Below are positions 34,098-53,817 of a DNA stretch of 64,000 nt, in pieces (within the stretch, counting starts at the first letter, position 1; each line of letters starts with the position of its first letter). The notes under the pieces were generated by a model. The model was not told the origin of the DNA. It did no database searches and was given only the letters and a program-made list of their open reading frames with translations. The DNA comes from Fermentimonas sp. (GTDB taxonomy: Bacteria; Bacteroidota; Bacteroidia; Bacteroidales; Dysgonomonadaceae): contig JADMKP010000007.1 in NCBI GenBank assembly GCA_015478775.1, positions 806,001 through 870,000 of the forward strand, given 5' to 3'. The position numbers and the translations under genes are program-made.

Positions 34098-35549
34098 TTA
34101 CTCGAATATTTGAGGTTCAATCTCAACCTTTCTCGCAACAGTTAAACTATAGATTGCAATTACTATAAAAGCAACTGTAGGTACCCAGTAAGCAAGCGAA
34201 ATCCCACTTGTTTGATCTGAAACTATTCCCTGTATTTGTGTAAGCAAAGCTGCTCCTGCAATTGCCATTACCATTCCTGAGCCAGCTATTTTTGTGTCCT
34301 CTCCCAAGTTCCTCATACCTAAACCATAAATAGTGGGGAACATGGCAGACATAAACACAGATATCGAAACTAATGCATAGACTCCAATAAACCCTTCTCC
34401 ATATATAGTTAATAGGGATGCAATTATAGCAAGTAAACTTAAACCCGATAAAATATTAACCGGTTTTGTATATTTCATTAGCCAAGTACAAACAAATCTT
34501 CCTATTACAAAAAGTAACAATGATAAAATATAATACGTTGCACCTGCTTGTTCAGCTGTACGAGGCAGCAGTACATCAAGCCCTAATCGTTCTGCAAAAT
34601 TATAAAAACCTCCTGCAATCGGTTCAACCCCTCTTAAAGTTTCTATAATAAGTTCTTGCGATGGGTTTGCTCCTAACCCGGCTATAACAGAGTCTAAAGA
34701 TAGTGACTGCATAACATATCTGATTATAAAAGACCAAACGGCTATCTGAGCTCCAACGTAGAAGAATTGAGCTACAACACCCCAAACATAGTTTTTATTC
34801 TTTTTTAATCTCCGAAAGGTTGCTTTTAAATTGAGATTCTTTTCCTCATCCTGTGTTTTAGGCATTTTAGTTAAAAATATCATTATAAAAATCAATAGCA
34901 TAATTATTCCTAAAATCAGGTATGCTGTTGTTATTGCATTTAATTCTCCTAATTGGATAGAATTGAGTTCTGTAGGAGTTAGTATAGCTCTCTCGTTTGC
35001 AGTCATAGTATTTAGTTGCGATAAAACGAATATCTGACTTGCCAGAACTCCTGTAACCGCTCCAAAAGGATTAAACGACTGTGAGAAATTTAACCTGCGA
35101 GTTGCTGTATTAGGATCTCCAAGAGTATAAACATATGCATTGGTTGAAGTTTCCAGAACCGATAGTCCTGCAAACAATACAAAAATAGCAAATAGGTAAG
35201 TTGCAAAACTTAAAGGAGAACTTAAAGTATTAACTAGCATTGCCGGATAAAAAAGAAAAGTGCCTAAAACACATAAACCTAACCCTAAAAGCACTCCCGA
35301 CTTATATGTGTGTTTTTTTATAAATATTGCCCCTGGCAGCGCAATAAAACCATACCCTAAAAGATAACAAACCACCTGAATCCATGCAGTTTGGCTGTCG
35401 GTTAGACTCATTATTCGTTTAAATGCTGCTAACATAGTGTCTGTCATATTATTTGGAATTGCCCAAATAAAAAACAGTGATGTAAGTATAATAAATGGTA
35501 ATACAATACCACTAGGTACAAGCCGATGTTTTTCTTTGTTAATGCTCAT
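34098..35549 (-). CDS. fucP: FucP-type MFS sugar:H+ symporter
   Basis: 483 residues, 12-helix MFS architecture. It resembles the L-fucose permease FucP: the first helix has FFIWAIPNNMTDTML (Asp37, equivalent to the substrate/proton Asp of FucP) and the fourth helix LSVLETSTNAYVYTLGDP (Glu133, equivalent to the proton-coupling Glu). L-fucose and D-arabinose share stereochemistry at C2-C4, and FucP-type carriers can take both. As the last gene of the arabinan locus it most likely brings released D-arabinose into the cytoplasm for the FucI enzyme encoded at 43861-45636. Other FucP-like carriers take glucose/galactose or GlcNAc, so the substrate is inferred. Confidence 0.85.
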   Translation of the reverse strand: MSINKEKHRLVPSGIVLPFIILTSLFFIWAIPNNMTDTMLAAFKRIMSLTDSQTAWIQVVCYLLGYGFIALPGAIFIKKHTYKSGVLLGLGLCVLGTFLFYPAMLVNTLSSPLSFATYLFAIFVLFAGLSVLETSTNAYVYTLGDPNTATRRLNFSQSFNPFGAVTGVLASQIFVLSQLNTMTANERAILTPTELNSIQLGELNAITTAYLILGIIMLLIFIMIFLTKMPKTQDEEKNLNLKATFRRLKKNKNYVWGVVAQFFYVGAQIAVWSFIIRYVMQSLSLDSVIAGLGANPSQELIIETLRGVEPIAGGFYNFAERLGLDVLLPRTAEQAGATYYILSLLLFVIGRFVCTWLMKYTKPVNILSGLSLLAIIASLLTIYGEGFIGVYALVSISVFMSAMFPTIYGLGMRNLGEDTKIAGSGMVMAIAGAALLTQIQGIVSDQTSGISLAYWVPTVAFIVIAIYSLTVARKVEIEPQIFE

Positions 35550-35623
35550 GTTTGTTATTTCTAGATTTATTTATGTTTATCGTAGATTTATTGCAGAATA
35601 TAAACAGTTTTTTCTAATATAAT

Positions 35624-36871
35624 TCAGAAAACAGTTTTCACTTTTTGCAAACTTACACCCAATAATTTTTCTGCAATAGGTGAGAGAGCTGCTTCTTCTC
35701 CCACAAAATGAAATATATTATGGCTATGCGACAATGATTGATTGGGATCTAAAAACGCTGCCGGTGAGCTACTTTCAAGCTCCAGGAAAGGTCCCATGAT
35801 ACTTCCATCTTCTAAAGGACCATCATTGTAGGCGTTTAGTGCATCTCCAACCAAAGGAGCACTTTCAGGATTCCATTCTTGATTTAGGTAAACTGCATCT
35901 GGGTGTACATCAAATGTTACAATTGTAAGTCTTTTAGAAATGGGATCATAGTTACCTGCTAATCCTTTTGTTCTGAGAGCATTCATACCAAGTTTACCTC
36001 TTGAGTTTCCATCTGTTTTAAAGTATAAAATACCTTTATCGTCAATTAGTCTTTCTTCTGGTATCTCTCCAAAATAATCAGATTTAACAATATCTCCCAG
36101 TTCCTCTATATCACCTTCGTTATAAGGAATTACTGTAACTGCTGAATCTGAAGGATTATACATATCAAGCATCCATATACAAACAGTGCCTGTTTCAGAG
36201 TTCCATTTAAAATCATTATTGTTGGTAATTATATTAAGAGTTGAGTATGCGACAGTTGAGACACCATTGGGAAGATTTATATTTAGCTTGTTTTTTATAT
36301 CATCTTCTTCTAGTAGAGTTATAGTACGCTCTACCGATAAATCTAAATGTGTTCCTATATAGTTATCTAATACCACATCCTTGGTAAAAGTTGCTTCTTT
36401 ATTAGTTGCACTTTTAACAGCCCATTCTTCTATATCTATAGCTTTTGGAGTATGCCAATTATCATATATCTGCTCTGTCTCTGGTTTAAAATAAATAGAA
36501 TAACCTCCACCTTCAGGACCTAACCAAAAACGATTTTCACCACCAAAACCATTCATATGTTCGTCTACAACTCCTGCATCGAAGAAGTTATAGTTAACAA
36601 ATCCGTGACTATTCCCCTCTAATCCTTTTGCAGTGGATGTAAACACTTTTGCCTGATATTTAGCAGAAAGTATAATCTGAGATTGCTCATTATCTGATTT
36701 GAGTAATATAATACTATCTTTTTCTGATAGATAATTCACATCATATCCGAATGTTCCTTTTTCATAGTTATTTCTCATTGTTTCTGATGTTTTTCTATTG
36801 CCGGTACAAGATATCATAAAGACACCAATTATTACGGCAGCAATTATACAATAAAAATTTCTTGTTTTCAT
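35624..36871 (-). CDS. Lipoprotein of the DUF6786-like type
   Basis: 415 residues with a lipoprotein signal (IGVFMISC, lipobox Cys22). The mature protein has short beta-rich segments (SQIILSAKYQAKVFTSTAKG, GFGGENRFWLGPEGGGYSIYF, SFDVHPDAVYLNQEW-like region) resembling DUF6786 proteins, which have a galactose-mutarotase-like look; I assign this by memory of the pattern, not by a search. It ends with a His-containing SLSHSHNIFHFVGEE segment. Given its position between the sugar transporter and the unknown enzyme it may be an aldose epimerase or glycan-binding protein of the locus, but no function is established. Confidence 0.6.
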   Translation of the reverse strand: MKTRNFYCIIAAVIIGVFMISCTGNRKTSETMRNNYEKGTFGYDVNYLSEKDSIILLKSDNEQSQIILSAKYQAKVFTSTAKGLEGNSHGFVNYNFFDAGVVDEHMNGFGGENRFWLGPEGGGYSIYFKPETEQIYDNWHTPKAIDIEEWAVKSATNKEATFTKDVVLDNYIGTHLDLSVERTITLLEEDDIKNKLNINLPNGVSTVAYSTLNIITNNNDFKWNSETGTVCIWMLDMYNPSDSAVTVIPYNEGDIEELGDIVKSDYFGEIPEERLIDDKGILYFKTDGNSRGKLGMNALRTKGLAGNYDPISKRLTIVTFDVHPDAVYLNQEWNPESAPLVGDALNAYNDGPLEDGSIMGPFLELESSSPAAFLDPNQSLSHSHNIFHFVGEEAALSPIAEKLLGVSLQKVKTVF

Positions 36872-36879
36872 ATCACTAT

Positions 36880-39000
36880 TTATTTTAGTTTTCCAAACTT
36901 ATCAAGTATTCTGTTATAGGCCTCAGCAGCTGCCCCATTACCCCAGTCGTAGATAGTAAACTCACCCATTCCTTCACCTTCTGGACTAGTTCTACCTCCA
37001 TGTCCATAATTTTCCATCATAAAACCATAATCTTCTTTGTCGAAGAAAGGATAAACTTTCTCCCACAGCTCCTTTGTTCCAGGATTATCTGGACTATACA
37101 TCATAACAAAAGATGCTTTAAGAGCAGCATGTCCTCTTTCATAATATTCTCTCATATCTAGCATCTTACCATATTGAAGTATAAGTTCAGAAAATAAACT
37201 TTGCCTAGAATCATTCCATTCCGCATCAGCGTTTAGTACACCAAATCCTCCAAGAACATTAACATACATATAGGGAGGTTGCCACGATGCCTGGGTCATC
37301 AACATCTCATCTAAAGTTCTCTGTCCAAATTTTAAATATTTCTCTTCGCCTGTAAGTTTATAACTCTCGAAAAGAGCCTCTGCTGTCCAGAACATAGAGA
37401 AGTTGTTATGCTTATACATATTGTTCCTATTTACTTTTTTTCCGACTAAAAAGTCCGATCCGTAACGAGAGCAAGACCAATATGTTTCGAAATCTTCCCA
37501 GCGACCTGTGGGTATAATCTCTTTTATAACTACATCCATTGCTTTTATGGCTGAGTTACGATACTTCTTCTCTTTTGTAAGCTCGTAAAGCTTTAAGAGT
37601 AAAGTAACCGACATAGAAGTTTCTGGAGATCTGTTTAAATGATCCATAGGCTGTAATGTACTAACATCCAACCACCCAGGAAAAAAGCCCTCATCAGACT
37701 GCATCTCTATAAGTGAGTTTGCATATTCTTTTACATACTCAATTAATCTTTCATCTTTCTCCAACTCATCATACCATCTAAGCATAAGAAGACCTGTCCA
37801 ACTCATATCTAGTAAATGAAAAGGAGATTCTGCAGGATTCCACGTATAAGGATTACGGTTAGAATTACCCCAGTAATGAGTATCCCATCCGCTACTTCTG
37901 TTATATTTTACACCATCAACCTCAACTTGATGCATTTCTGTTCCAATAAGCCCATAAAAGAAACCATTCTTTTTGGGATAAGACAATGCAAGCTCTTTAG
38001 TAAGAATTGCTTTTTGCAAAAGATTGTCATTTCCGGTACGTCTTGCATAACGAAACAACCCACTAGCTGAACGAAGTGAACTAAACCAAGCTTGATTCCA
38101 GACAGATCTGAATTCACGCTCATTTATTTCTCCCGGATAGTTAGGACTTTGTGTGACATTGACTATAAAAACGGGAGATCCAACCTTTTTTCCGTTCAAC
38201 TCAAACTCCTGCCAAACACTTTCAGACCAGCTATTAAATGCCCAATTATAAGTATGCTCAACATATCTCTCTAAATCTTCGTCAAGAGGATTTCCAGACT
38301 TATACAAGTCGTGACCCCAATTGTTCCAAAGAAAACTTAATGCATTTCTAAATGGATTATTTATTGATTCTTCATCATTAAATTTTAGTAAATAAAAGCC
38401 TATTTCAATTTCTCCTTCAGGATAAACGGCATCATGTTCGCGTTTAAAAAGTATATGATTGTCAACGCTACTATTACTCATTCCGAGTACAAGTTTATTA
38501 ATTTCAGCATCCATATCCATATACCATCTTACCGGAGTATCATTTCCAAGTATATCAAGATCAGGTATTAACATAAACATCTTACTATTATCTGAAACTA
38601 TCAATGCGGGAGAACGAAATACATGTTGATCTATAATATGATTATCTGTTGGAGTTAAATGAGGTGCCCAATGATAATTTGGTGTGAAGTTGGGCGTAAC
38701 TACAACTTGCCAATCGTCTTGTATTACTTCTTTTTTAAGAGAAAAAGTAATCTTTACATGAATTGTATTAGCATCAACCACCGTTACAGAACTTACCCCC
38801 CTACTCTCTCCTAAAAAATCATATTGAATTTGCTGCACAACATTATCAAATGAAGTGGGCACATCAATATTTTGCGTGACCTCATTTGATATATTTTTGT
38901 AATTAATAGCAAATAATGGAGTGTTTAACGCACATAATGCAATTAAAATTGCACCATGAAAAATCAGAATATTTAGTTTTGTATGTTTGTATTCGTTCAT
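36880..39000 (-). CDS. Large secreted protein of unknown family, probable alpha/alpha-barrel enzyme
   Basis: 706 residues from the ATG at 39000; an in-frame ATG at 39039 would add 13 residues in front of the signal peptide and is less likely. After the signal (LNILIFHGAILIALCALNTPLFA) comes a beta-rich domain of about 200 residues. The rest is repeated helical hairpins rich in W, Y and acidic residues (SLRSASGLFRYARRTGNDNLLQKA, SWTGLLMLRWYDELEKDERLI, SMSVTLLLKLYELTKEKKYR, WTAEALFESYKLTGEEKYLKF), typical of (alpha/alpha)6 toroid glycosidases or lyases. I cannot name the family. Its place in the PUL suggests a glycan-active enzyme acting in the periplasm. Confidence 0.7.
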   Translation of the reverse strand: MNEYKHTKLNILIFHGAILIALCALNTPLFAINYKNISNEVTQNIDVPTSFDNVVQQIQYDFLGESRGVSSVTVVDANTIHVKITFSLKKEVIQDDWQVVVTPNFTPNYHWAPHLTPTDNHIIDQHVFRSPALIVSDNSKMFMLIPDLDILGNDTPVRWYMDMDAEINKLVLGMSNSSVDNHILFKREHDAVYPEGEIEIGFYLLKFNDEESINNPFRNALSFLWNNWGHDLYKSGNPLDEDLERYVEHTYNWAFNSWSESVWQEFELNGKKVGSPVFIVNVTQSPNYPGEINEREFRSVWNQAWFSSLRSASGLFRYARRTGNDNLLQKAILTKELALSYPKKNGFFYGLIGTEMHQVEVDGVKYNRSSGWDTHYWGNSNRNPYTWNPAESPFHLLDMSWTGLLMLRWYDELEKDERLIEYVKEYANSLIEMQSDEGFFPGWLDVSTLQPMDHLNRSPETSMSVTLLLKLYELTKEKKYRNSAIKAMDVVIKEIIPTGRWEDFETYWSCSRYGSDFLVGKKVNRNNMYKHNNFSMFWTAEALFESYKLTGEEKYLKFGQRTLDEMLMTQASWQPPYMYVNVLGGFGVLNADAEWNDSRQSLFSELILQYGKMLDMREYYERGHAALKASFVMMYSPDNPGTKELWEKVYPFFDKEDYGFMMENYGHGGRTSPEGEGMGEFTIYDWGNGAAAEAYNRILDKFGKLK

Positions 39001-39060
39001 AATACTGGAGCTAGATAATCTAATATCGTTAAAAAACAATCTAATCCTTAGAAATCAATT

Positions 39061-41001
39061 CTATTCAATTCTTTCTAATGTGATCAATGTGAGCTCAAAG
39101 AGGGTTGCATCTCCATTATCTTGAACATGAATTGTTATTGAATTTGTTTGTGATGTTAATTGAATATCACCCACATATACATTTTCTGTGTAGGAATCTT
39201 TACTTGCTTTAGTAGATATCCAATCTGTTAGTCTGTTTTGTCTTTGCCAAATTTGAAAATCAGCTCCTTTAGGTGTTTCATGGTAATTCAACATTACCTT
39301 ATACTTACCTTCCGGAACATCATTCAGCATAATCCTTACTGCTCCTTTACCAAAGGAGGTCATAGCTAAACCTCTTCCAAAAATTACCTGTATACCTCTC
39401 TCTAGAGTGATTTCCATTAATTGAGGGAAGAATGTATGTCGTTTGGGCAAATAAACCTCTCTGAGATCTTCTGTTGGCTCCATACGACCTTTTAAAGGCT
39501 CGGATCCGTAGTAAAATGCAACGGTAGCATAATCAACAGGAAAATCATTCCCTACTTCACCATGCTCCATCCCATGATAAATCTCTTTTTCAAATGGCAT
39601 TTTATCAGACAAGAAAAAACGATATGCACCGGTGCGTCCCATAGGAAGTGAATAATCTAGAGAGCCATGTATAGGCATACTAATTCCTCTGTCCCAACGA
39701 TCAAGTATAGCATACCATCCGCCATTGTAATAATCCTCAGAACCAGTACCATGAAGAAGCATTTTTCCATCAACATAAGTTGTATCATCTCCTTCCCAAA
39801 ATAGAGTCATTCCGGGGCGTAAGCCTTGTGCATGATGTACAGTTCCTACAAAGTGCCCTTTTCCTTTTGTATCTAGAAAAGTATAAAACTCACCAATTTC
39901 AGGTATTTCACGTCTCCAAACTGTATAAAGCTTTCCTTCATCTGTTGCATTGCGGCTATTATTGTTATAATAAACCTTTGTTGTTACTGTTATGGGATTC
40001 TGCTGAACTCCTTCACGCTTTTTATAGATAAGCTTCATTTCTGCAGATCTATCGTATGGCATAGGAAGATAACTATAATTAATTGTGCCATGACGACCCA
40101 TCACTATACTTCGCATTGCAGGCTTTCCAAATGCATATCCGAAGAAATCAGCTACCGGAGAATAGATTGCCTCTACATCTTCATTGTCCCATATCGCAGA
40201 TAATATTACGTCTTTATTTAACCCCTCAAATGATGTGCCTCCATCAATATCAAAGCCTACTATGCGACCTCCTTGAGCTGATTCGAAGAATGTGACCTCC
40301 TCTCCAGGCTGAATTAAAAAAGTCTTTTCCTGGTTCTTTATATCTGAAGAAATTCCGCTTGTATAATTATTTACAGTTGGAGAAATATCAGACCATAAAA
40401 CATTAACTTCAGACAGCAACTGTTTATCTAGTTCATTAAACTGGCCAGTCCAGCTTTCAACGTTAACTCCTGGCATATAACGATACTGTATTTGATGAAA
40501 CATTACATGTTCTCCTTCAAATACTATTTTTAACGATTTCTTAAATGGAATTGGAATATATGAATAATAACCCCCTATCTCGTTACCTACTACAGGCTTT
40601 GTAAATGGATAAACCTCACCAGAAAATAGATCCATAAATTTAATTCTCAATCTCGGTGTATTTTCTCCATCGAAATAGAATGCAAGTGTATCTTCAGTTG
40701 GTGTGGGGGTCCAAAATCTGTTAAGCACTCCAGGGCCTTCAAACTCAGCTAATACCAGATGACCATCTTCTTTCCTTATATATGAGTATTCTCCAGAAAA
40801 TCCATCATCATTACCGTGTGTTCTGTCCCAGCTAGACTCCTGTTCAATTAATTGATTATGCCTGTACATGGGTAATTGATCAACTCTTTTTAACTGCTCT
40901 ACCTCATCGGCCCAGCGATAAATATCTGATTGACTTTTTGCCTGAAAAAGAGTAAAAAATAATATCGTCACTAATAAAAATCTCACTGAAATACTTTTCA
41001 T
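39061..41001 (-). CDS. GH172 (DUF2961) glycoside hydrolase, long form
   Basis: 646 residues with a signal peptide ending in FQAKSQ. The N-terminal domain has the DUF2961 signature EFEGPGVLNRFWTPTPTEDTLAFYFDGENTPRLRI. The C-terminal jelly-roll part carries the paired glutamates of GH172: Glu403 in FWEGDDTTYVDG and Glu422 in HGTGSEDYYNGGWY. Characterised GH172 enzymes act on alpha-D-fructofuranosides or alpha-D-arabinofuranosides, which are sterically similar; D-arabinofuranosidase activity is known from Dysgonomonas and actinobacterial members. It is about 250 residues longer than the other two copies here and only distantly similar, so it may use a different linkage. Confidence 0.88.
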   Translation of the reverse strand: MKSISVRFLLVTILFFTLFQAKSQSDIYRWADEVEQLKRVDQLPMYRHNQLIEQESSWDRTHGNDDGFSGEYSYIRKEDGHLVLAEFEGPGVLNRFWTPTPTEDTLAFYFDGENTPRLRIKFMDLFSGEVYPFTKPVVGNEIGGYYSYIPIPFKKSLKIVFEGEHVMFHQIQYRYMPGVNVESWTGQFNELDKQLLSEVNVLWSDISPTVNNYTSGISSDIKNQEKTFLIQPGEEVTFFESAQGGRIVGFDIDGGTSFEGLNKDVILSAIWDNEDVEAIYSPVADFFGYAFGKPAMRSIVMGRHGTINYSYLPMPYDRSAEMKLIYKKREGVQQNPITVTTKVYYNNNSRNATDEGKLYTVWRREIPEIGEFYTFLDTKGKGHFVGTVHHAQGLRPGMTLFWEGDDTTYVDGKMLLHGTGSEDYYNGGWYAILDRWDRGISMPIHGSLDYSLPMGRTGAYRFFLSDKMPFEKEIYHGMEHGEVGNDFPVDYATVAFYYGSEPLKGRMEPTEDLREVYLPKRHTFFPQLMEITLERGIQVIFGRGLAMTSFGKGAVRIMLNDVPEGKYKVMLNYHETPKGADFQIWQRQNRLTDWISTKASKDSYTENVYVGDIQLTSQTNSITIHVQDNGDATLFELTLITLERIE

Positions 41002-41189
41002 ACTTTACATTCTTTTCGTTTATAAACAGTTACACTTCTATATTACAAACTTAACTAATAAATATTTAGTGTTACTTAAAATTATAAAATTTCTCTTTTA
41101 ATTGTTTCTCATGGTATAGATTGATAAACACTATAACTTATCTTTCAGATATGTTTTTAAATACTTATTCCTGAAAAATGACAATCAAA

Positions 41190-42356
41190 TTAATTCATTT
41201 CTAAATCTTCCCATGATGGAAATGTTGGGAATTTTGCGTGTGGCTCTGATTGATACCAAAAAACTACTGAAGATATATCAGACTGTTGTGGTAAATACCT
41301 GTGCCCATGACGCCATCCTAAATCTTGAATTGTAACTCTAAGATCTTTTTTAAATCTGATAGGATCCATCACATGCCATCGATACATACCAAATCTCTGT
41401 CCGGCTTTATATGTTTGCTCTGGTGGTAATACCTGCACTAAGCCTGCATAGGGAGTTGTGAATGTTACATATTTGCCGTTCCTGTCGAAATTATATGAGC
41501 CTAGAAAATAATCTTCAGTTCCTGTTCCAATTATTGTAGGAAACTGTTTATCTCCATCCATAAAAAACTTTATTTCTCCTTCGCCCCACCAGCCATTATT
41601 GTTTACTTGCCAAGCCATATATACTCCTACATATTGACCTTCTCCTTTTATGCCATCAACAATAGTATAATCAGAGGTTTCATTAACTTTTTTACGACGA
41701 TATTGTGCATGAAAATAAGCTGCATCATCTGGTACATCAGTTAAAGTATAATCTACTTGGTAATATAGATTCATTGACTCAGAATCGTTTATATTTGTCA
41801 TAGTTATACGCGCCTTCTTCCTGAAAGGCATTACCCAATAGCTGTTGAATGCACTACCGGGATTTACTGTTACAGGTAGTGAGTTAAGATGTGAATACTC
41901 ATTCCAACCCATACCAAAGAAATGTCCCACTGGTGCTTCAACAGACGGCTCAGTTTCATCATCCCAATAAATTCTTATTATTGAGAATCGCCAGTTTCCA
42001 GTGGGTGTCATCCAAATGTGCTGAATAGCTCCAGGACCATCAATTTCTGCTATGGTAAAGGTCTCACCAGGCTCAATTGTTACAAACGGGTTTACTTTCC
42101 ATCCCTGACCTAGATCACGAGAAGGAACAGTTGCATTAGCTGTGTTTCTTGAAGCATTTGCATCAGGAATTGCCATTCCTCCTTTACCCTTTTCGCCTGT
42201 AAAGTTCTCTGGGCTAATTGACCTTGTTTCTGCATTTGATAAACGATGCAGATTACCCATATTCATCTCTAATCCAGAAAATGATTGATTCTGAGAAATA
42301 GCTCCAAAAGAAAAAATAACGATCAATGCCGTAAATAAGCCTGATTTTAATCTCAT
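41190..42356 (-). CDS. GH172 (DUF2961) glycoside hydrolase, short form
   Basis: 388 residues with signal peptide (FTALIVIFSFGAISQ). DUF2961 landmarks: IAEIDGPGAIQHIWMTP, IIRIYWDDETEPSVEAPVGHFFGMGWNEY, the FRKKARITMTN strand, Glu259 in WWGEGEIKFFMDGD and Glu281 in IIGTGTEDYFLGSYNF. The two Glu are the probable nucleophile and acid/base. Expected role: exo-cleavage of D-arabinofuranosyl residues in the periplasm. It is 52 bases downstream of the DUF4185 gene, on the same strand, and a 188-base gap separates it from the next GH172 gene. Confidence 0.9.
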   Translation of the reverse strand: MRLKSGLFTALIVIFSFGAISQNQSFSGLEMNMGNLHRLSNAETRSISPENFTGEKGKGGMAIPDANASRNTANATVPSRDLGQGWKVNPFVTIEPGETFTIAEIDGPGAIQHIWMTPTGNWRFSIIRIYWDDETEPSVEAPVGHFFGMGWNEYSHLNSLPVTVNPGSAFNSYWVMPFRKKARITMTNINDSESMNLYYQVDYTLTDVPDDAAYFHAQYRRKKVNETSDYTIVDGIKGEGQYVGVYMAWQVNNNGWWGEGEIKFFMDGDKQFPTIIGTGTEDYFLGSYNFDRNGKYVTFTTPYAGLVQVLPPEQTYKAGQRFGMYRWHVMDPIRFKKDLRVTIQDLGWRHGHRYLPQQSDISSVVFWYQSEPHAKFPTFPSWEDLEMN

Positions 42357-43823: not shown

Positions 43824-43860
43824 TATATTAATAACGTTAAAATACTAATTATTTATTCAT

Positions 43861-45636: not shown

Positions 45637-45655
45637 ATTTTTATTTTTTTAATAG

Positions 45656-45808
45656 TTAGTCTAAATTATAACGTGTCCACATTGGTATAGGTATACTATC
45701 TGATATTGGTCTGACCCATTTACTGATATTTTGGCCTGTAACAGTATTTATATATAAAAACAATAAAGTTATCAGAACAGTGAATATCAATTTTGTTTTA
45801 TTAATCAT
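45656..45808 (-). CDS. Possible short exported peptide upstream of fucI
   Basis: A 50-residue frame from the ATG at 45808: basic start, hydrophobic core LIFTVLITLLFLYINTVTG and a short tail NISKWVRPISDSIPIPMWTRYNLD. It looks like a signal peptide followed by 24 residues. The open frame continues upstream to 45880 but with less likely starts. It ends 19 bases before fucI. It could be a small secreted peptide, a remnant of a truncated gene, or noise; I know no family for it. Confidence 0.35.
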   Translation of the reverse strand: MINKTKLIFTVLITLLFLYINTVTGQNISKWVRPISDSIPIPMWTRYNLD

Positions 45809-45932
45809 CTGTATATTTTTAAACCAAATAAATAAAATCAATAAAAAGGGAGAGTATTTCAGAATATTAATCACACACAAATAAAAAAACCAAATATCTC
45901 TCCTTTATAGTTGGGATATGAGTCTAACCTCA

Positions 45933-45992
45933 GTCTTATCTAAGTCTTGCCAAGCTCCTTAATAAAAGAGCGAGATAAGAGTGAGATAAGAC
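45933..45992. repeat. Inverted and direct repeats in the gap upstream of fucI
   Basis: GTCTTATCT (45933-45941) is the reverse complement of AGATAAGAC (45984-45992). In addition GAGATAAGA occurs twice, at 45972 and 45983, 11 bases apart. The stretch lies in the non-coding gap between the small lipoprotein gene and fucI. It could form a long-loop hairpin or hold tandem protein sites. Confidence 0.4.
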
Positions 45993-46036
45993 GTAAGTAA
46001 GAATCATATATTGATTAAAACAAGAGAAATCATAAT

Positions 46037-46444
46037 TTAGAGTTCAATTATAACCCCCTCTGAAAAAACTCTATCTGTAAATCCATCCTCTTTTGCATCA
46101 GGAGTCAGAAACCCGAGTAATTTAACTATAAACTTATATTCTTTTGCAGGGTCAATTTCAATTTCTCTACTTGTTGCTTCATCAAAAACAGCAATGTTTT
46201 GTCTGTATATATCATCTTCAACCACTTGAATTGACACTTCAATAGGACGTCTGAAACTATCTGATATGTCGGATGGAATTTGCCATGTTATAGTTGCAAT
46301 GTTGTTTTGCTGACTTACAGATAAATTTGTAACAATTGGTAAAGAATGATTGAAGTCTTTTCTATCAATTATATCTCTATCATAGCACCCTGTTAGAATT
46401 ACAATAGAAAGCGTTACAATAAAAAGTTTTACTATATATTTCAT
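46037..46444 (-). CDS. Small Fn3-like PUL lipoprotein (DUF4945-like)
   Basis: 135 residues with lipoprotein signal VTLSIVILTGC (Cys20) followed by YDRDIIDRKDF. The rest reads as one Ig/Fn3-type beta sandwich: VTNLSVSQQNNIATITWQIPSD, RPIEVSIQVVEDD and IDPAKEYKFIVKLLG. The start of the mature chain and the domain type match what I recall of DUF4945 proteins encoded behind susD genes. Likely a surface-exposed accessory glycan-binding or spacer protein of the SusCD complex. It is 21 bases behind susD. Confidence 0.65.
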   Translation of the reverse strand: MKYIVKLFIVTLSIVILTGCYDRDIIDRKDFNHSLPIVTNLSVSQQNNIATITWQIPSDISDSFRRPIEVSIQVVEDDIYRQNIAVFDEATSREIEIDPAKEYKFIVKLLGFLTPDAKEDGFTDRVFSEGVIIEL

Positions 46445-46465
46445 ATTAATATTTTTAATTGATTA

Positions 46466-48274
46466 TTAATATCCGGGATTTTGAGTATAATTACCTTTAG
46501 CCCAATTGATTTGGGGTTGAGGAATTGGAAAAAACTCATCCCTTCCTTCTGTAAAACGAGCGTTCGCCATCCATGTGAATCTTTCTCTTTCAACAGAAAA
46601 ATAATAGTTCATTGTCTCTTCAAGTGTTCCCCATCTTTGAAGATCAAAAAATCTTCGGCCTTCTCCTGCCATTTCGAGTCTATTTTCCCATTCCATTGCT
46701 TTCCAAGCAAAATCTTTATCCCATACACAGTTTTCACCTGGTTTATAAAGCTCTACATGATAATTCATAATGGGTGAACCATCTGGCATAATTAGAAGTT
46801 CATCGCTATTTGCAGCTCTTCCTCTTACTTTATTTATAGGTTCCAAAGCTTCGTCCCAACGATCTAGCTGAATTAATACTTCGGCTTTCCATAACAAAAC
46901 CTCATCGTAACGTATCAACCTTTTATTCATAGAGTTAAATTGCCATCCGTCGTAAAGAAGACAATCACAACCAGGGTGGGGAAGTTCTTTTACAGATTTG
47001 AAGTAACCATATTCATCACCATTTCTTATTCCTTGTCTTTGAAAAATAAGATCAGGATCATACTTCCAAGGATGACCTGGCAGGCCTATAGTATGACTAA
47101 ACCGTGGATCCCAGTTATAGGCGTCGAAATAGTCGGGGTTACCCGCATCAATTAAACTAAAATCAACCATACCAGAACTATTTGTTATATAATCTCCATA
47201 ATCGTCATCGTTATATGTGTCAAAAAGAGGTAATCCGTCAGGCCCAGTTTTAAAAGCATTTGCCATACTATAACTGATTTGATGAAATCCACAACAGATA
47301 AATCCGCCCCAATTCCATGGATGGTTTAATCCTTCGCTTCTATTAATCTTACCTCCAGTACTACTTCCATCACTAATTGAGTACTGTATTTCCCAGATTG
47401 ATTCTTGGGTATTATTATCTGAAGAGTGAACGAAATTTGTTCCAAAGTCAGGAGTCAAATCAAGTTTTGCACCTTCTTGACTAGTTAACTTATTGAGATA
47501 TACTAGAGCTTCAGTAAGTCTCTCTTTATTAATATTTACAACCTGATGCCTGTCGTTTTGTTCGTAAGCCATAAACATTAAAACTCTTGCAACCATGGCT
47601 GTTGCTGCATTTTTATCTACTCTTCCCTTTTCAGGTTGAACATCGGGTAGACTCTCTTCTGCATCTTTAAAATCTTGCAATATACGCTCCCATAGATATT
47701 GATCATTAGGAAACTCATCATCTCTGTTTGGTATTGCTTCAAACTCAGTCGATGTCCCAACTACGTTATCATCTATGTAGGGTATATATTTAAAAAACTG
47801 TTTAAGTCTGAAGTGTACAAAACCTCTGATAAATTTCATTTCTCCAATTCTTACATCCTTCAAAGGAAATTCCTCTTCTGGGATTATATTTAGCTTTTGA
47901 ATTGCAGTATTTGTTCTTTGAATAATCTGATATGAAACATACCACGGAAAATCAATAGGCCAACCATTTGGGGTAAGATTTACAAAGGTTTCCATAAAAC
48001 CCCAACCATCTCCACCATCCCAAGTACCACCTCCGCCTTTATAGGAGTCGTCGGATCGCAAAGAGCCTGTCCACCAAGGAGAAAAAGGTGAGTCCCAAGA
48101 TGGAATATCTGTTATTCTAGCATATGCTGCGGTAACAAAGCCCTCCATATCCTCAGGTGAGGTTAGAAGTCCATCATCTAATACTTGCTTTGGATTCACT
48201 TCAAGAAATTCAGTGCAATTGCTAACAGTGAATAAAAAAGCTATTGTAAAAAAGAGATATTTTATTTTTTTCAT
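46466..48274 (-). CDS. SusD/RagB-family glycan-binding lipoprotein
   Basis: 602 residues. Lipoprotein signal FLFTVSNC (Cys20) followed by the SusD-type TEFLEVNPKQVLDDGLLTSPEDMEGFVTAAYARI. The C-terminal part has the family segment FAWKAMEWENRLEMAGEGRRFFDLQRWGT and ends with FFPIPQPQINWAKGNYTQNPGY. TPR-like helices lie between. It forms the lid of the SusC channel and binds oligosaccharide at the cell surface. It directly follows susC (11-base gap). Confidence 0.96.
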   Translation of the reverse strand: MKKIKYLFFTIAFLFTVSNCTEFLEVNPKQVLDDGLLTSPEDMEGFVTAAYARITDIPSWDSPFSPWWTGSLRSDDSYKGGGGTWDGGDGWGFMETFVNLTPNGWPIDFPWYVSYQIIQRTNTAIQKLNIIPEEEFPLKDVRIGEMKFIRGFVHFRLKQFFKYIPYIDDNVVGTSTEFEAIPNRDDEFPNDQYLWERILQDFKDAEESLPDVQPEKGRVDKNAATAMVARVLMFMAYEQNDRHQVVNINKERLTEALVYLNKLTSQEGAKLDLTPDFGTNFVHSSDNNTQESIWEIQYSISDGSSTGGKINRSEGLNHPWNWGGFICCGFHQISYSMANAFKTGPDGLPLFDTYNDDDYGDYITNSSGMVDFSLIDAGNPDYFDAYNWDPRFSHTIGLPGHPWKYDPDLIFQRQGIRNGDEYGYFKSVKELPHPGCDCLLYDGWQFNSMNKRLIRYDEVLLWKAEVLIQLDRWDEALEPINKVRGRAANSDELLIMPDGSPIMNYHVELYKPGENCVWDKDFAWKAMEWENRLEMAGEGRRFFDLQRWGTLEETMNYYFSVERERFTWMANARFTEGRDEFFPIPQPQINWAKGNYTQNPGY

Positions 48275-48285
48275 AATTCAACATT

Positions 48286-51200
48286 TTAAAACGTTACATT
48301 AAGTCCAAAAGCCATAGTAAAAGGTGTTAAATAACCATATCCGGCCATTTCAGGATCAAAACTTGTATATTTATCACTGCCCCATCCTTTTGTCAAAGTA
48401 AAAATATTTCTGGCCGATGTATATATTCTAATATTATTTGGAAATGTATATCCAAGTTCGATGTTCCTAAGTTTTAGGTAAGATCCGTCTTCTACATAAT
48501 ATGAAGAAAATCGTTGTTCTGCGTTTTGGTTTATATTAGTTATTGCCGGGATATCAGAATCTACATTATCGAAGTACCATGCATCAAGTATTCTATTCTC
48601 ATGATTTTTACCTGCAGGAACCGAAATATTCCATAAATCACTTTCTCTTTTCCATTCGTTGTTCACTTTATTTCCGTAAACACCCTGGAAAAATACATTT
48701 AAATCGAAATTCTTATAATTCAAGTCGAGAGTTAAACCACCAAAGAAATCGGGGTCGGTTATTCCAATATAAGTTCTGTCGTAAAGCTCATCAATAACAC
48801 CATTCCCATCTAAATCTTTAAAACGGATACGTCCAATTGCTTTACCTGCCTGCTCAACATGATTATCTACCTCTTCTTGAGTTCTAAAAATTCCATCAGC
48901 AACTAGTCCGTAGAGAATATGAGGAGTTCTGCCCAATACCAGATCATTCATACCATCTCCCGGATATCTGTTAATGACATTTTCGGGTAGCTCAACAAGT
49001 TTAGTTCTGTAACTACCAAAGTTTAAAGATATTGAATAGTTAAAATCATTAATAGGATTGCTTCTATAAGTAATTTCAAATTCAACACCCTGATTGTTCA
49101 TATTTGCTCCATTGATCCAGGGCTCACCACCTTCTCCCATTGCAGCGATGTATGGTACTTGCACTAAAACATCTCTGGTTTTTTTGAAATAATAGCCTAA
49201 TGAACCTGTTATTCTCTGATTCATAAATCCATAATCTATACCAAAATCAGCTTGAGTTGTTGTTTCCCATTTTAGATCAGGATTACCTAACCATGTTCTT
49301 CTATATCCTGAGTATAGTTGACCGGTTTCGTTTCCCTCAATGGGATATGATGTTTCAAAATAGTTGGTTGTAAACGGTGTTGTAGTAAAACCACGAGGTA
49401 ATCCTTGCACACTACCGTTAGCTCCCCATCCTGCTCTTAATTTTAAATCAGAAACAGGATCAACATCTTCCATAAATGCCTCATCGCTTAACCTCCAACC
49501 TACAGAAAATGCCGGAAATACTCCAAATCTGTTATTAGATCCAAAAAGAGAAGAGCCATCACGTCTGATAGTTGCAGAAAATAAATACTTAGAGTTATAG
49601 GCATAATTAGCTTTTGCGAATAATGAAAAGTATGCATACTCGTCTGCCGAACTTCCTAATGAATATTTCTCACCTGTTGTAACACCAATATGTGCAAAAT
49701 CACGATCTTCTAAATAAACACCTTCACGTCTTGCATTAAACCCCTCTTGAACAAATCTTGTAAACTCAGTTCCGATTACAGCATCAAAAGTATGCTTTCC
49801 TGTTGATAAGTTATAAGAAAGGGTGTTTGTCCATACATAACTCAGGGGATGAGACTGAGAGCTAGATACATAATTCTCTCCGTCGCTACTTCTTCCACCA
49901 GTCTCAGACCATAAACCATCTACATTTCTGTTATATGCATTACCATAATCGACACCAAACTGAGTTCTGGCAGAAACACCGTTCCATATATGCAGGTCTG
50001 CAAAAATATTACCTATTATCTTCACATAATTGCTAATGTTGTCTTTATACATAGATAAAACACGAACCGGATTAGTAAAGTCATCAAATCCCGGTGCGCC
50101 CGCCCAATTACCATTTATATCATAAACAGGTCCTGCTGGCGGATTTATCATTGCCCATCTTGTTTCATTTGCTGATCTATATTGAAGATAAGAAAGAGCA
50201 ATATTTTCTCCTACCTTTAATCTTTTATTTAAAAGGTCATACTCTGTATTAACTCGTAAAGAATATTGTCTAAAAAAAGTATTAATCTGAGTACCTTCAT
50301 TATCATAATATCCTAGTGAAAAAAGACTTTTAGAATGTTCAGTTCCACTTGAAACGGTAACTTGATGATTTGTCATTAATGCTGTTCTGAAAATCTCATC
50401 CATCCAATCAGTATCTGACCCTCTTACTGTTTGTTCTGAATTTAACCATTCTTTAGGCTTAGCACTTTCTAGAATAGGAAAACCATCTGCTCCTCTTTGC
50501 CAAACATAATCATAAGTTGAAGGGAGTACCATAGGAACACCATATACTTTTTCATCATAAGCAGCTGCCCTGAATGCAGCGATTCCGTACTGTTCTGCAT
50601 TCATCAGTTTTGGTCTGTTTACAACACTACTAAATGACACACTACCTCTATAGTCTACACTAACTTTGCCTGCTTGTCCTTTTTTAGTCTGAATTAAAAT
50701 AACACCCCCAGATGCTCTTGCACCATATATACTGGCTGAGGCAGCATCTTTAAGTATCTGTATGGATTCTATATCACCTGTGTTAATATCCCTTAGGTTC
50801 AGATTTTGTGTAGGCATACCATCTAATACTATCAATGGTTGTACATTACCCGATAATGATGACAAACCTCTTACCTGAATATTTACAGACTCTGCGGGAT
50901 CACCACCATTAGTAGTAATGTGTACACCTGCCATTTTACCTTGCAATGCTTTCATCGCATTGGCGGAAGGGTTTTTCACCAAATCAGAACTAGAAGCAAC
51001 AGATATAGAACCGGTAAGATCAGCTTTTCGCTGTGACATATAACCCGTAAAAACAATTTCATCTAGTAATGTAGCATCATCTAACATGCTAATATCTATA
51101 ACCGATACTCCTCTTACAGGTCGTCTTTCAGTTGTTTTGCCCATAAATGAGAAAACTAAAACAGCATCTTCTGATGGAACATTAAACTCATACTCTCCAT

Positions 51201-51411
51201 TTGCATCAGTTACAGTACCAATACTAGTTCCTTCTATATATACACTAACTCCCGGAAGGGGTTCATTTGTACTCTGCTCTAAAACTACACCTCTAATTAC
51301 TCTTGCCTGTTGAATATCAGTAGGCAAGTCTGAAGCTATAGTTAAAATTGAGAGAGACAAAAACAGACAAATCAAAAATAATTTGTCAATTGTTCGTTTA
51401 AAATAATTCAT
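48286..51411 (-). CDS. SusC/RagA-family TonB-dependent outer-membrane transporter
   Basis: 1041 residues. Signal peptide, then a carboxypeptidase-D-like regulatory domain (about 38-115: IRGVVLEQSTNEPLPGVSVYIEGTSIGTVTDANGEYEF), the TonB plug (about 125-235: ALQGKMAGVHITTNGGDPAESVNIQVRG, SIQILKDAASASIYGARASGGVILIQTKKG) and a 22-strand barrel ending in a terminal Phe (GLNVTF). It imports oligosaccharides with its SusD partner, driven by TonB. Second gene of the operon after the GH172 gene. Confidence 0.97.
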   Translation of the reverse strand: MNYFKRTIDKLFLICLFLSLSILTIASDLPTDIQQARVIRGVVLEQSTNEPLPGVSVYIEGTSIGTVTDANGEYEFNVPSEDAVLVFSFMGKTTERRPVRGVSVIDISMLDDATLLDEIVFTGYMSQRKADLTGSISVASSSDLVKNPSANAMKALQGKMAGVHITTNGGDPAESVNIQVRGLSSLSGNVQPLIVLDGMPTQNLNLRDINTGDIESIQILKDAASASIYGARASGGVILIQTKKGQAGKVSVDYRGSVSFSSVVNRPKLMNAEQYGIAAFRAAAYDEKVYGVPMVLPSTYDYVWQRGADGFPILESAKPKEWLNSEQTVRGSDTDWMDEIFRTALMTNHQVTVSSGTEHSKSLFSLGYYDNEGTQINTFFRQYSLRVNTEYDLLNKRLKVGENIALSYLQYRSANETRWAMINPPAGPVYDINGNWAGAPGFDDFTNPVRVLSMYKDNISNYVKIIGNIFADLHIWNGVSARTQFGVDYGNAYNRNVDGLWSETGGRSSDGENYVSSSQSHPLSYVWTNTLSYNLSTGKHTFDAVIGTEFTRFVQEGFNARREGVYLEDRDFAHIGVTTGEKYSLGSSADEYAYFSLFAKANYAYNSKYLFSATIRRDGSSLFGSNNRFGVFPAFSVGWRLSDEAFMEDVDPVSDLKLRAGWGANGSVQGLPRGFTTTPFTTNYFETSYPIEGNETGQLYSGYRRTWLGNPDLKWETTTQADFGIDYGFMNQRITGSLGYYFKKTRDVLVQVPYIAAMGEGGEPWINGANMNNQGVEFEITYRSNPINDFNYSISLNFGSYRTKLVELPENVINRYPGDGMNDLVLGRTPHILYGLVADGIFRTQEEVDNHVEQAGKAIGRIRFKDLDGNGVIDELYDRTYIGITDPDFFGGLTLDLNYKNFDLNVFFQGVYGNKVNNEWKRESDLWNISVPAGKNHENRILDAWYFDNVDSDIPAITNINQNAEQRFSSYYVEDGSYLKLRNIELGYTFPNNIRIYTSARNIFTLTKGWGSDKYTSFDPEMAGYGYLTPFTMAFGLNVTF

Positions 51412-51432
51412 ATTATTAAAGTTAAATCATTA

Positions 51433-52638
51433 TTAATTTTTTAACTCATTACCCCATAACTGAGGATCATTACCATTAGCTTTCCTCCAGGCATCTCTCC
51501 ACCTGTGCATATCCATGTGATTTATAAATGGTTTTGGTTGTCTTTGCTCTTTAGTAGGAGCATTGGGAAGCATTACTGCAGAGTCCTGATACCAATAAGC
51601 TACAGTAGACAAATCTAGAGTAAGGTTATTATTATGTCCGGTTTCGATTGTACCTTTTACCTCTGTTTCAAAAAATATTGGATCATTTATAAAAAACCTA
51701 TAAACATGTGTTCTTCCCAACCAACCTATATCACTATTTACACGCGGGTAACCAAAATGTGGATGAGAAAATGGCTCTTTAGGACACCACGAAGTATTAA
51801 AAAAGTCTTCTGTTCCGGTTCCAATTAACGAAGGAGTAGTTTCTCCATCTATAAACCACATATCATCACCTTCTCCGTACCACATTGGAGTGGGAGAGTG
51901 AACGTAATAATTAATACCTACAAAATGACCTTTTCCTTTAGTGTTAATAAAGGTATAGTTTCTATCGGTTTGAGTATTTGGTTTCCATTCACCTGTAAGT
52001 GCCCATTCGGTTTCTCCTTCGGGTAATGCTTCTGACAAAGTATGATTATACCATGCATGAAAACGACCCATCTCTTCAGGCAACTCTGCCATTTCTAAAT
52101 AATCTACATAAAAATAAAAAGCATTGATTGTTTTGTCGGTCTGATTTTCTATTTCTATTCTAGCTCCTTTTTCGAAGGGCATTGCAAAATAACTGCTTAA
52201 TCCGGTTCCCTCCTCAGGACCTGCCGATAAAGTCAGTGATGCGTAGTTATACCGTTCATTCCATCCTTGACCGAAGAAAGGACCAATAGGAGATTCGACC
52301 GACGGATATTCATTTCCGTCCCAATACATTCTAATAATTATATCATTTCTGCTTAACTCTCCAGGTGGTGGTGCAATTGTTATCCATATGTGGTTTATCA
52401 CACCAGTACCATTAATATTAGCAATTGTTCTTTTTTCACCTGGTGAAAAAGGTTCAAGATGATCTCTATTTCCAACTGTAGGGTCGGTGCTCGAAATTCT
52501 CTTGTTCTTTAACCCAGATTTCATTTTTGCTAATTCAAACATTTCACCTAACGACTCATTTTGCGGGTAAACTGAAAATGATATCAGCAGGCTTAAAACA
52601 AAGAAGCTAAATTTCAGATACTTAAATTCAATTTTCAT
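51433..52638 (-). CDS. GH172 (DUF2961) glycoside hydrolase heading the SusCD operon
   Basis: 401 residues with a signal peptide (FSFFVLSLLISFSVYPQ). Landmarks: INGTGVINHIWITI, IIRMYWDGNEYPSVESPIGPFFGQGWNERY, FEKGARIEIENQTD, Glu256 in WYGEGDDMWFIDGE and Glu277 in LIGTGTEDFFNTSW; the 21-residue spacing equals that of the catalytic pair I recall for the Bifidobacterium GH172 enzyme. Expected to remove D-arabinofuranosyl (or alpha-fructofuranosyl) residues. It lies 21 bases upstream of susC, and a LacI-type operator candidate lies 81 bases before its start. Confidence 0.9.
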   Translation of the reverse strand: MKIEFKYLKFSFFVLSLLISFSVYPQNESLGEMFELAKMKSGLKNKRISSTDPTVGNRDHLEPFSPGEKRTIANINGTGVINHIWITIAPPPGELSRNDIIIRMYWDGNEYPSVESPIGPFFGQGWNERYNYASLTLSAGPEEGTGLSSYFAMPFEKGARIEIENQTDKTINAFYFYVDYLEMAELPEEMGRFHAWYNHTLSEALPEGETEWALTGEWKPNTQTDRNYTFINTKGKGHFVGINYYVHSPTPMWYGEGDDMWFIDGETTPSLIGTGTEDFFNTSWCPKEPFSHPHFGYPRVNSDIGWLGRTHVYRFFINDPIFFETEVKGTIETGHNNNLTLDLSTVAYWYQDSAVMLPNAPTKEQRQPKPFINHMDMHRWRDAWRKANGNDPQLWGNELKN

Positions 52639-52718
52639 AATGTTAATAAATAATTGGATTTGAAATAATTTTTAAAATAAATTATCAATAAGATTAGGTT
52701 TAAATTTACTTATTTAGA

Positions 52719-52730
52719 TTAATCGTTTAA
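52719..52730. promoter_or_regulatory. LacI-type operator candidate before the GH172-susCD operon
   Basis: TTAATCGTTTAA, an imperfect palindrome with the central CG typical of LacI-family operators. The identical 12-mer occurs at 53871-53882 upstream of the lacI gene. A TAAATTTA -7-like sequence lies at 52701-52708 on the operon side. Confidence 0.55.
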
Positions 52731-52797
52731 CTAAAAAGTAAAAAAAATACATCACACGCAATATTAAAGAATTATTTATATAAAATAATTTGGTAAA

Positions 52798-53817
52798 TCA
52801 TTGATGAACTCTGGTTTCATTAAGTACCAACTCTGCCTTAAGTACAATATTTTTTGATTCATCAATACTCTTAGATTCAATTTGCTCAATCAGCAATTCA
52901 ATTGCATTCTTTGCAATTTCCTTAATTGGCTGTTTTATAAACGGTACTGTGTAGGGTAGAATATAAAAAGCGTCATTTTCATCAAAGCACATTATTTGAA
53001 TATCCTTTTGAATATTTATTTTATTCTTAATAAGTGCTTTAACTCCATTAATTGATATAGAGTTGGTAGTAAAAAATATACCATCAATTTTTGGATTTCT
53101 TTTTAATAATTTTTCGATGGAAAATGTAATATCATCTTTTAAATTGTGATAACTAACTTCTTCTACATTGTTCTCATCATTAATTCCTGAATTCTTTAAT
53201 GCATCAATTGCACCATTTCTTCGTTCGTTTATATGATAATGATCTTGTCTATAGGTGACTATGGCTATATTCTTGCAACCTTTATTTATAAGTTCCTCTG
53301 TAGATTGATAAGATATATCGTAGTTATTTATCATGACAGAGTTTACTTCCATATCCGGAAAACACCTATCCACAAGTACAAGAGGTACATTGTTCTTTTT
53401 TAAATTATTTAAAAGATGTTGACTATTTTCAGTGGGAGTTATAATTAATCCATCTACCTGGCGTGCATATAAAAATTTTATCATATGCTCCATCTCGTTA
53501 ATATTTTCATTGGTATTACCAATCAAAACAGTATAACCATTTGCGTGTGCATAATTTTGAATATGAAGGGCTAAAGCACCAAAAAAAAGGTTAGAAACAT
53601 CAGCAATTATTAAACCAATAGATTTTGACTTACCAACTTTTAATCCCTTTGCAAGTGTATTAGGAACATAATTAAGTTCGGTAGCTTTATCCAATATTTT
53701 TTTGGACATCTCATTGCTTACTCTCCCGTTTATATTCTTACCATTGAGAACAAGAGAAACTGTGGCTGAAGAAACGCCTAACTCATTTGCTATGGTTTTA
53801 AGAGATACTCTTTTCAT
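52798..53817 (-). CDS. LacI-family transcriptional regulator
   Basis: 339 residues. The DNA-binding headpiece is at residues 1-60: VSLKTIANELGVSSATVSLVLNGKNINGRVSNEMSKKI and the hinge LNYVPNTLAKGLK. A periplasmic-binding-protein-like sensor follows (KSIGLIIADVSNLFFGALALHI, DGLIITPTEN, PLVLVDRCFPD, ENDAFYILPYTVPFIKQPIKEIA). It probably represses the arabinan locus until a breakdown product, perhaps free D-arabinose or D-ribulose, binds. LacI-type control is unusual for PULs, which mostly use hybrid two-component or SusR-type sensors. Its own promoter spans an operator candidate, suggesting autoregulation. Confidence 0.93.
   Translation of the reverse strand: MKRVSLKTIANELGVSSATVSLVLNGKNINGRVSNEMSKKILDKATELNYVPNTLAKGLKVGKSKSIGLIIADVSNLFFGALALHIQNYAHANGYTVLIGNTNENINEMEHMIKFLYARQVDGLIITPTENSQHLLNNLKKNNVPLVLVDRCFPDMEVNSVMINNYDISYQSTEELINKGCKNIAIVTYRQDHYHINERRNGAIDALKNSGINDENNVEEVSYHNLKDDITFSIEKLLKRNPKIDGIFFTTNSISINGVKALIKNKINIQKDIQIMCFDENDAFYILPYTVPFIKQPIKEIAKNAIELLIEQIESKSIDESKNIVLKAELVLNETRVHQ

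Follow-up and report, generated by a model that had tools for sequence, protein, structure and literature searches.

A probable D-arabinan utilization locus of reduced content in Fermentimonas sp., with two conserved uncharacterised proteins beside known enzymes

Can one gene cluster of a Fermentimonas genome carry D-arabinan, the hallmark sugar polymer of mycobacterial-type walls, through to D-ribulose? The question is raised by a minus-strand locus at positions 34098-53817 of a 64,000-nucleotide stretch (hereafter the window; contig JADMKP010000007.1, positions 806,001 to 870,000) of the Fermentimonas sp. assembly GCA_015478775.1, for which an original prediction had proposed a complete and unusually self-contained route. 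Genes for enzymes that cut this polymer were reported only recently (2023: PMC10115798, PMC10509167, the two enzyme studies on D-arabinan loci found in the literature searched). The locus is very likely a D-arabinan polysaccharide utilization locus (PUL), a slimmed-down counterpart of PUL42 of Dysgonomonas gadei. In itself it is one more example; its value lies in a comparison that exposes two conserved uncharacterised proteins beside known enzymes across distant lineages.

Gene content and substrate

Open reading frame (ORF) and family searches identified twelve intact open genes in one cluster with D-arabinan-type content. In order of transcription, they encode a LacI-family regulator, a GH172 protein, SusC, SusD, a DUF4945 protein, FucI, a GH183 protein, two further GH172 proteins, a protein without a family name (labelled AA6 here), a DUF6786 protein and FucP. 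Every gene named in the original prediction was found intact, and its family names were borne out by DUF2961 (GH172) matches in three proteins and a DUF4185 (GH183) match in one; the DUF4945 gene was missing from its list. DUF4185 and DUF2961 are scarce among 296 sampled genomes of the phylum (16, 14 of them over the cut-off, and 26 matches, respectively, with the window genome included in both), so the cluster is not a product of chance.

The first GH172 protein (51433..52638, minus strand; Pfam E 1.7e-79) has a signal-like N-terminus and scored 748.8 bits against 4kq7, deposited as a hypothetical protein, and 623.8 bits against 8ah3 (DG02479, that is, DgGH172c), of which it is the apparent counterpart and, by prediction, likewise an exo-alpha-D-arabinofuranosidase. 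Its catalytic Glu 256 and Glu 277 are 21 residues apart, as is the DgGH172c pair by the numbering in the available part of the published description. The second (41190..42356, minus strand; DUF2961 match) scored 378.7 bits against the exo-alpha-D-arabinofuranosidase ExoMA1 (8ic8) and appears to be the counterpart of ExoMA1 and probably also of DgGH172a. The third (39061..41001, minus strand) has two DUF2961 stretches, amounting to about 1.5 domains, and corresponds to DgGH172b, which is described as having '1.5 DUF2961 domains' in the accessible text of its source; its best solved match is 8ah3 at 82.5 bits, and it is 51% identical to the protein at the DgGH172b position in Dysgonomonas sp. 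UBA7710. The catalytic Glu pair is kept by motif in all three proteins (spacing 21, 22 and 19). The GH183 lipoprotein (42408..43823, minus strand; E 6e-92), a predicted endo-D-arabinanase, aligned over 308 residues with EndoMA1 (8hhv; 189 bits), and both catalytic Asp are matched. The pair comprises Asp 174 and Asp 192, 18 apart; the deposited structure 8ic1 has Asn at the second position. The lipobox at its N-terminus is followed by SKEDN, which resembles the Bacteroidota signal for surface export of lipoproteins.

FucI (43861..45636, minus strand; 1048 bits), presumably cytoplasmic, has a D-arabinose isomerase as its best solved relative (963 bits, versus 892 for the best L-fucose isomerase) and is read as a D-arabinose isomerase. 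A second FucI, 69% identical to it, lies on contig C12 of the same genome in the order GntR regulator, FucI, L-fucose mutarotase (over the cut-off) and an 826-residue frame that matches GH95 in its last 244 residues, surrounded by rhamnose and xylose genes. The locus FucI would therefore be free for D-arabinose, and its closeness to a D-arabinose isomerase and the second, fucose-type cluster both support the predicted FucI route via D-ribulose. FucI and the FucP-type symporter of the major facilitator superfamily (MFS; 34098..35549, minus strand; FucP equivalog TIGR00885, 400 bits against a cut-off of 280) do bear L-fucose names, and the locus could on that ground be assigned to L-fucose glycans; this is extremely improbable, since no fucosidase family was found among the twelve genes and the second FucI sits with an L-fucose mutarotase and GH95 on contig C12.

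D-arabinan is thus a well-supported substrate from sequence comparison: GH172 and GH183 retain their catalytic residues, D-arabinofuranosidases and endo-D-arabinanases are their nearest relatives among solved proteins of known function, and the genome has another FucI/FucU/GH95 cluster, of fucose type, elsewhere. As a phenotypic hint, Fermentimonas caenicola SIT8 ferments D-arabinose and not L-arabinose on API strips (PMC5896035).

AA6 and DUF6786, two conserved proteins beside the known enzymes

AA6 (36880..39039, minus strand) is a secreted protein of 706 amino acids for which ATG at 39000 is a likelier start than the listed TTG. No Pfam family matched it over the cut-off and NCBIfam gave no match; weak matches to GH88 (23.7 against 26.6 bits) and GH127 (20.8 against 24.9 bits) fall below their cut-offs, and neither family was accepted. 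This check considered GH88, GH127, GH116 and PL27 by Pfam, NCBIfam and PDB, with CAZy's own models outside the comparison. The AlphaFold2 model, built with 71 sequences, has a mean predicted local distance difference test score (pLDDT) of 94.0 and a predicted template-modelling score (pTM) of 0.91, and confidently predicts a beta-sandwich with an (alpha/alpha)6 barrel after it. Glu 502, Asp 503, Glu 505, Asp 592, Glu 594 and Asp 597 are acidic residues that do not vary in AA6. Its best fold matches are PL27, GH52, GH63, AGE-type epimerases and GH76; such folds hydrolyse, lyse or epimerise, so the chemistry is not fixed by the fold. A single-sequence search of the PDB matched 5no8 (E 0.0022). 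The 71-sequence profile gave no credible match in the PDB and did not recover 5no8, so the single-sequence hit is backed by the fold comparison only. The protein in 5no8, the PL27 lyase BACCELL_00875, shares the beta-sandwich and (alpha/alpha)6 barrel with AA6 at 11% identity in the fold match, and is reported to act on rhamnose-capped plant arabinogalactan.

Gene neighbourhood connects AA6 with D-arabinan enzymes. AA6 relatives numbered 258 among 328 stretches of a species-genome collection, and the best 80 were kept for locus counts; these come from Bacteroidota groups, Paenibacillus, Cohnella, other Bacillota, Acidobacteria, Aminicenantes and Lokiarchaeota metagenome-assembled genomes (MAGs). 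By iterated profiles, with some GH183 and FucI matches weak, genes within 10 kb of AA6 in these 80 loci include GH172 (50 loci), ribulokinase (31), DUF6786 (26), GH116 (22), GH183 (17) and FucI (16). GH172, GH183 or GH116 is found near AA6 in 61 of the 80 loci, in 41/58 outside the Dysgonomonadaceae-like group and in 10/16 from Bacillota, where the 22 Dysgonomonadaceae-like and 16 Bacillota loci were assigned by hand; these marker counts are lower bounds, because a longer overlapping frame hid AA6 in L107, L110 and L112, which were counted as lacking markers. From the GH172 (26/296) and GH183 (16/296) frequencies in the phylum, the likelihood of a chance neighbour within 22 kb is well under 1%, an estimate made without a run control. 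Full-length AA6 occurs in 3 of the 296 genomes of this unbiased sample, one of the three being the window genome, and GH172 lies within 14 kb in all three. The best independent case, Paenibacillus rhizosphaerae (L120), encodes the end of FucI, ribulokinase, GH172, GH183 with a lipobox-like start, parts of an ATP-binding cassette (ABC) transporter, a DUF6259 protein, AA6 and a LacI-like regulator, in that order.

We note that the DUF6259 protein, of about 743 amino acids, is near AA6 in D-arabinan-type loci of both Paenibacillus (L120:7666-9894) and Cohnella (L128:4858-7083), where no GH116 was seen, and is a candidate for another D-arabinan enzyme. Separately, Lokiarchaeota MAG contigs L127 and L133 encode AA6 relatives at 59-60% identity with no marker genes seen nearby; the presence of these contigs in the MAGs may be a binning error.

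AA6 also follows GH172 in its apparent compartment. By a crude hydropathy rule for a hydrophobic N-terminal run, such an N-terminus is found in 57/63 AA6 proteins outside Bacillota and 1/14 within, and in 40/44 and 0/6 GH172 proteins, respectively. The corresponding figures are 11/11 and 4/6 for GH183, and 7/21 and 0/1 for GH116, which gives no clean rule. Because the N-terminus patterns agree, AA6 probably resides in the same compartment as GH172, an exo-enzyme, in keeping with activity on oligosaccharides after import. From its fold and gene neighbourhood, we infer that AA6 is an undescribed glycosidase for imported D-arabino-oligosaccharides. It is not a simple swap for GH116, since 22 of the 80 AA6 loci hold both; AA6 could still cover a loss of GH116 in the window genome.

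The DUF6786 lipoprotein (35624..36871, minus strand) was identified by family and fold matches. Its model (pLDDT 89.0, pTM 0.87) has a galactose-mutarotase-like fold (3q1n, E 1.3e-10; 2cir, E 1.2e-7), the N-terminus is lipoprotein-like, and His 382, His 388, Glu 364 and Glu 366 do not vary among 25 sequences. On this model, the most economical guess is a D-arabinose mutarotase, with a binding protein also possible.

A broader proposal, which we advance tentatively and rate somewhat short of probable, is that AA6 founds a new GH family cleaving a D-arabinofuranosyl linkage, a branch or a beta cap, that GH172, GH183 and GH116 do not serve. The family would be common to D-arabinan-using lineages from Bacteroidota to Bacillota, possibly with Acidobacteriota and Asgard archaea as well, and would do the work of a missing GH116 in the window genome, with DUF6786 as a periplasmic-side D-arabinose mutarotase. 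If AA6 is such a D-arabinofuranosidase, the known enzyme set is incomplete, and AA6 would be a missing tool for dismantling mycobacterial-type walls and mapping their branches.

Missing genes and evidence against a complete route

Eleven relative stretches of 20 to 47 kb each were compared with the window locus. AA6 and DUF6786 are present in nine, the G007 and G050 stretches stopping before that place. A GH116 gene is likewise present in nine; the 30 kb of G064 lack it, and the G007 stretch is cut. It was identified by Pfam in G054 and G015, by a profile on matching records in G051, G049, G087, G092 and G010, and by place and length in G050. In G052, which is grouped in one genus with the window genome and carries the locus, GH116 is broken into two frames (L034:15591-18625), reflecting either GH116 decay elsewhere too or an assembly error. 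A gene of 350 amino acids without a Pfam family recurs among the relatives, as does a ribulokinase (by Pfam and NCBIfam on examples). GH116, the 350-residue gene and ribulokinase, all common in relatives, are absent from the window locus, and fucI differs in position. G092 encodes a 414-residue protein between DUF4945 and GH183 (19907-21148 of joined L047+L046) that looks like a transposase.

Several observations weigh against the D-arabinan assignment or narrow it. The available part of PMC10509167 calls DgGH172c highly similar also to the alpha-fructosidase alphaFFase1. That enzyme (7v1v) belongs to GH172 and scored 167, 147 and 60 bits against the GH172 proteins at 51433, 41190 and 39061, which opens the reading of a locus for alpha-D-fructans or difructose anhydrides, its GH172 proteins acting as alpha-D-fructofuranosidases. 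We consider this very improbable, because all three score higher against a D-arabinofuranosidase, and neither GH183 nor FucI has a known role in fructan use. GH116 is the family of the known exo-beta-D-arabinofuranosidase and the one known to act on beta-D-arabinofuranose caps. It was not found in the genome by a family search that gave a match in three of the 14 control genomes, two of them over the cut-off, nor by a protein search, which had no positive control; complete digestion of mycobacterial arabinan is therefore doubtful. No L-fuculokinase was detected over the cut-off in the genome, and the three matches below it are a rhamnulokinase, a xylulokinase-like protein and a ribulokinase on contig C8. 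The last is the sole ribulokinase found with the relatives' protein as query (56% identical) and adjoins araA, araD and genes with alpha-L-arabinofuranosidase-type, GH127 and GH43 domains in an araBAD-type operon.

The remaining points concern AA6. Its structure matches are at fold level only, with template-modelling scores of about 0.3 to 0.4 by query. GH172, GH183 and GH116 are all absent near AA6 in 19 of the 80 loci, and the neighbours in the 11 of these that were typed are mixed, including sulfatases and a GH92, with no single theme. This typing covered 53 of 72 proteins in 14 loci, 11 of them among the marker-free 19; L092 and L094, which contain known genes, were excluded, as were L107 and L112, for which a frame on the wrong strand had been picked; L110 was included, its AA6 frame likewise having been missed. 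Nine more of the 296 genomes hold a partial or weak AA6, and GH172 is present in only three of these and within 40 kb in none, so distant AA6 relatives need not act on D-arabinan.

The 'complete route' of the original prediction therefore does not stand: GH116 and a locus ribulokinase, both held by relatives, are missing, and searches across the whole genome returned no GH116. Nor is its choice of actinobacterial arabinogalactan or lipoarabinomannan as source polymer supported; none of the locus genes was recognisable as encoding a galactan or mannan enzyme. A more reduced function is conceivable, in which a decaying or scavenging locus that has lost GH116, the 350-residue gene and the kinase uses short alpha-linked D-arabinofuranose chains of pilin or lipopolysaccharide type rather than whole arabinogalactan. 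The genes missing compared with relatives fit this, as does a possible remnant of the 350-residue gene in the 400-base gap before fucI (45637..46036, minus strand). There, a 50-residue ORF has a weak likeness to the N-terminus of that gene, with 0, 1, 3, 4 and 4 of 500 shuffles reaching the score against five references. However, none of the twelve genes left is interrupted, GH183 has been retained, the missing step could fall to AA6, and a Fermentimonas locus (L054) is likewise compact with open genes. Decay is on balance unlikely, and a working D-arabinan locus of reduced content remains the preferred reading.

The L054 locus (L054:3839-16550), from a Fermentimonas MAG, is a compact version with LacI, FucI, two GH172, AA6, DUF6786, a FucP-type MFS transporter and ribulokinase; SusC/SusD, GH183 and GH116 were not seen within its 22 kb.

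Regulation and proposed pathway

The LacI-family regulator (52798..53817, minus strand; Pfam LacI and Peripla_BP_1), which heads the locus in relatives too, is flanked by two copies of a conserved palindrome, which is likely, on good evidence from sequence conservation, to be its operator. One site lies between lacI and the first enzyme gene (52718..52731, minus strand; exact GTTAAACGATTAAT), and the other 52 bases before lacI (53870..53883; core TTAAACGATTAA on the minus strand, one mismatch to GTTAAACGWTTAAT). These are the two sites in the window at one mismatch or fewer, where 0.15 are expected, and none of 100 shuffles had two. Among the lacI-fucI intervals of five relatives, four (G052, G054, G064 and G049) contain the perfect palindrome TTAAACGTTTAA twice, and that of G087 contains the TTAAACGATTAA form twice. 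Genome-wide, the core is found in 8 places, two of them at the locus, and a backwards control pattern gave 3 matches versus 11 for the operator pattern. Four of the other six places are inside open reading frames, so the motif alone is not specific.

In the proposed pathway, LacI would repress the operon via TTAAACG(A/T)TTAA sites. The GH183 lipoprotein would cut D-arabinan at the cell surface, and fragments would be imported by the SusC-type outer-membrane transporter (48286..51411) and the SusD-type glycan-binding lipoprotein (46466..48274), both minus-strand genes identified by family match, together with DUF4945 (46037..46444, minus strand; Pfam E 2.2e-43). The latter is a small lipoprotein and possible surface glycan-binding protein that was seen in 9 of the 11 relative stretches and not in G007 and G015. 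In the periplasm, the three GH172 proteins would remove alpha-D-arabinofuranose, AA6 would cut a linkage beyond the reach of GH172 and GH183, and DUF6786 may equilibrate the freed D-arabinose. FucP would carry D-arabinose into the cell, where FucI would convert it to D-ribulose, probably phosphorylated by the ribulokinase of the L-arabinose operon.

Genomic setting

The host genome spans 2.9 Mb in 13 contigs with a completeness of 99.6%. Housekeeping genes flank the locus, with YchF and NadA upstream, and a radical-SAM protein, a VTT-domain protein and DNA polymerase I downstream. GH183 is separated from the next GH172 by 51 bases, and fucP from the radical-SAM gene by 108. No tRNA was found in the window, nor any Rfam family at gathering score. 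Outside the locus, the window encodes GH92 (1976-4228) and GH2 (24644-28039) glycosidases and a NamZ-type exo-beta-N-acetylmuramidase (9962-11212), a second cell-wall sugar enzyme in this stretch. Contig C4 of the same genome (L136:6783-18999) encodes a fourth GH172 with GH127, glutaminase A-type, GH2-type and SusC/SusD-like genes.

Comparison with known D-arabinan loci

Among the closest loci are those of Proteiniphilum, Petrimonas and Seramator, whose genes are about 60-89% identical to their counterparts in the window, several at the same chromosomal site beside YchF/NadA (judged by ORF length, and by sequence for L054). Where FucI and LacI both appear at the head of the locus, in seven stretches, FucI comes after LacI, unlike in the window, and a GH116-sized gene occurs with the 350-residue gene in seven of eight genomes (not G064). 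Ribulokinase also recurs; these genes are absent from the window locus.

Another is the D-arabinan locus of Microbacterium arabinogalactanolyticum, which shares GH183, GH172 and an isomerase but is of Gram-positive type, with an ABC transporter, GH116 and a kinase. The isomerase and kinase are putative, and no AA6 or DUF6786 counterpart is named in the available part of its source (PMC10509167).

PUL42 of D. gadei is the described counterpart. According to the available parts of the two sources, it contains three DUF2961 genes (02467, 02471 and 02479) and two DUF4185 genes (02480 and 02481), its fucose isomerase is the most abundant carbohydrate-active enzyme on D-arabinan (PMC10115798), and 02468 is a putative GH116 (PMC10509167). 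The related Dysgonomonas sp. UBA7710 (G010) has the order GH172, GH116, DUF6786, AA6, GH172b, FucI, SusC, SusD, DUF4945, three more genes, GH172y (893.8 bits to 8ah3), GH183, GH183 and ribulokinase, which by counting is consistent with all six published PUL42 locus tags. From this order, AA6 and DUF6786 very probably correspond to 02470 and 02469 of D. gadei. Neither these two tags nor the name DUF6786 was found in the literature searched, with most subscription papers outside its coverage.

The claims that such loci are rarely described and that this one is unusually self-contained are thus overtaken by PUL42 (2023), which has the same design with FucI, and by the isomerase and kinase of the Microbacterium locus, as far as the available text of these sources extends. 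PUL42 has two GH183 genes and GH116, whereas the window locus has a single GH183, lacks GH116 and a kinase, and is ordered differently; the UBA7710 stretch additionally has a second SusC-type gene and ribulokinase, which the window locus does not. The GH116 exo-beta-D-arabinofuranosidase, perhaps not a defining feature, is the PUL42-type feature that was not found; GH183 with both Asp, GH172 with the Glu pair, and SusC/SusD with FucI are all present. Shared with PUL42 are three GH172 proteins (one with about 1.5 domains), GH183 and FucI and, by locus-tag counting on the Dysgonomonas relative, SusC/SusD, DUF4945, DUF6786 and AA6. The window locus is very likely a real D-arabinan locus of ordinary design and reduced content, and that design is already described.

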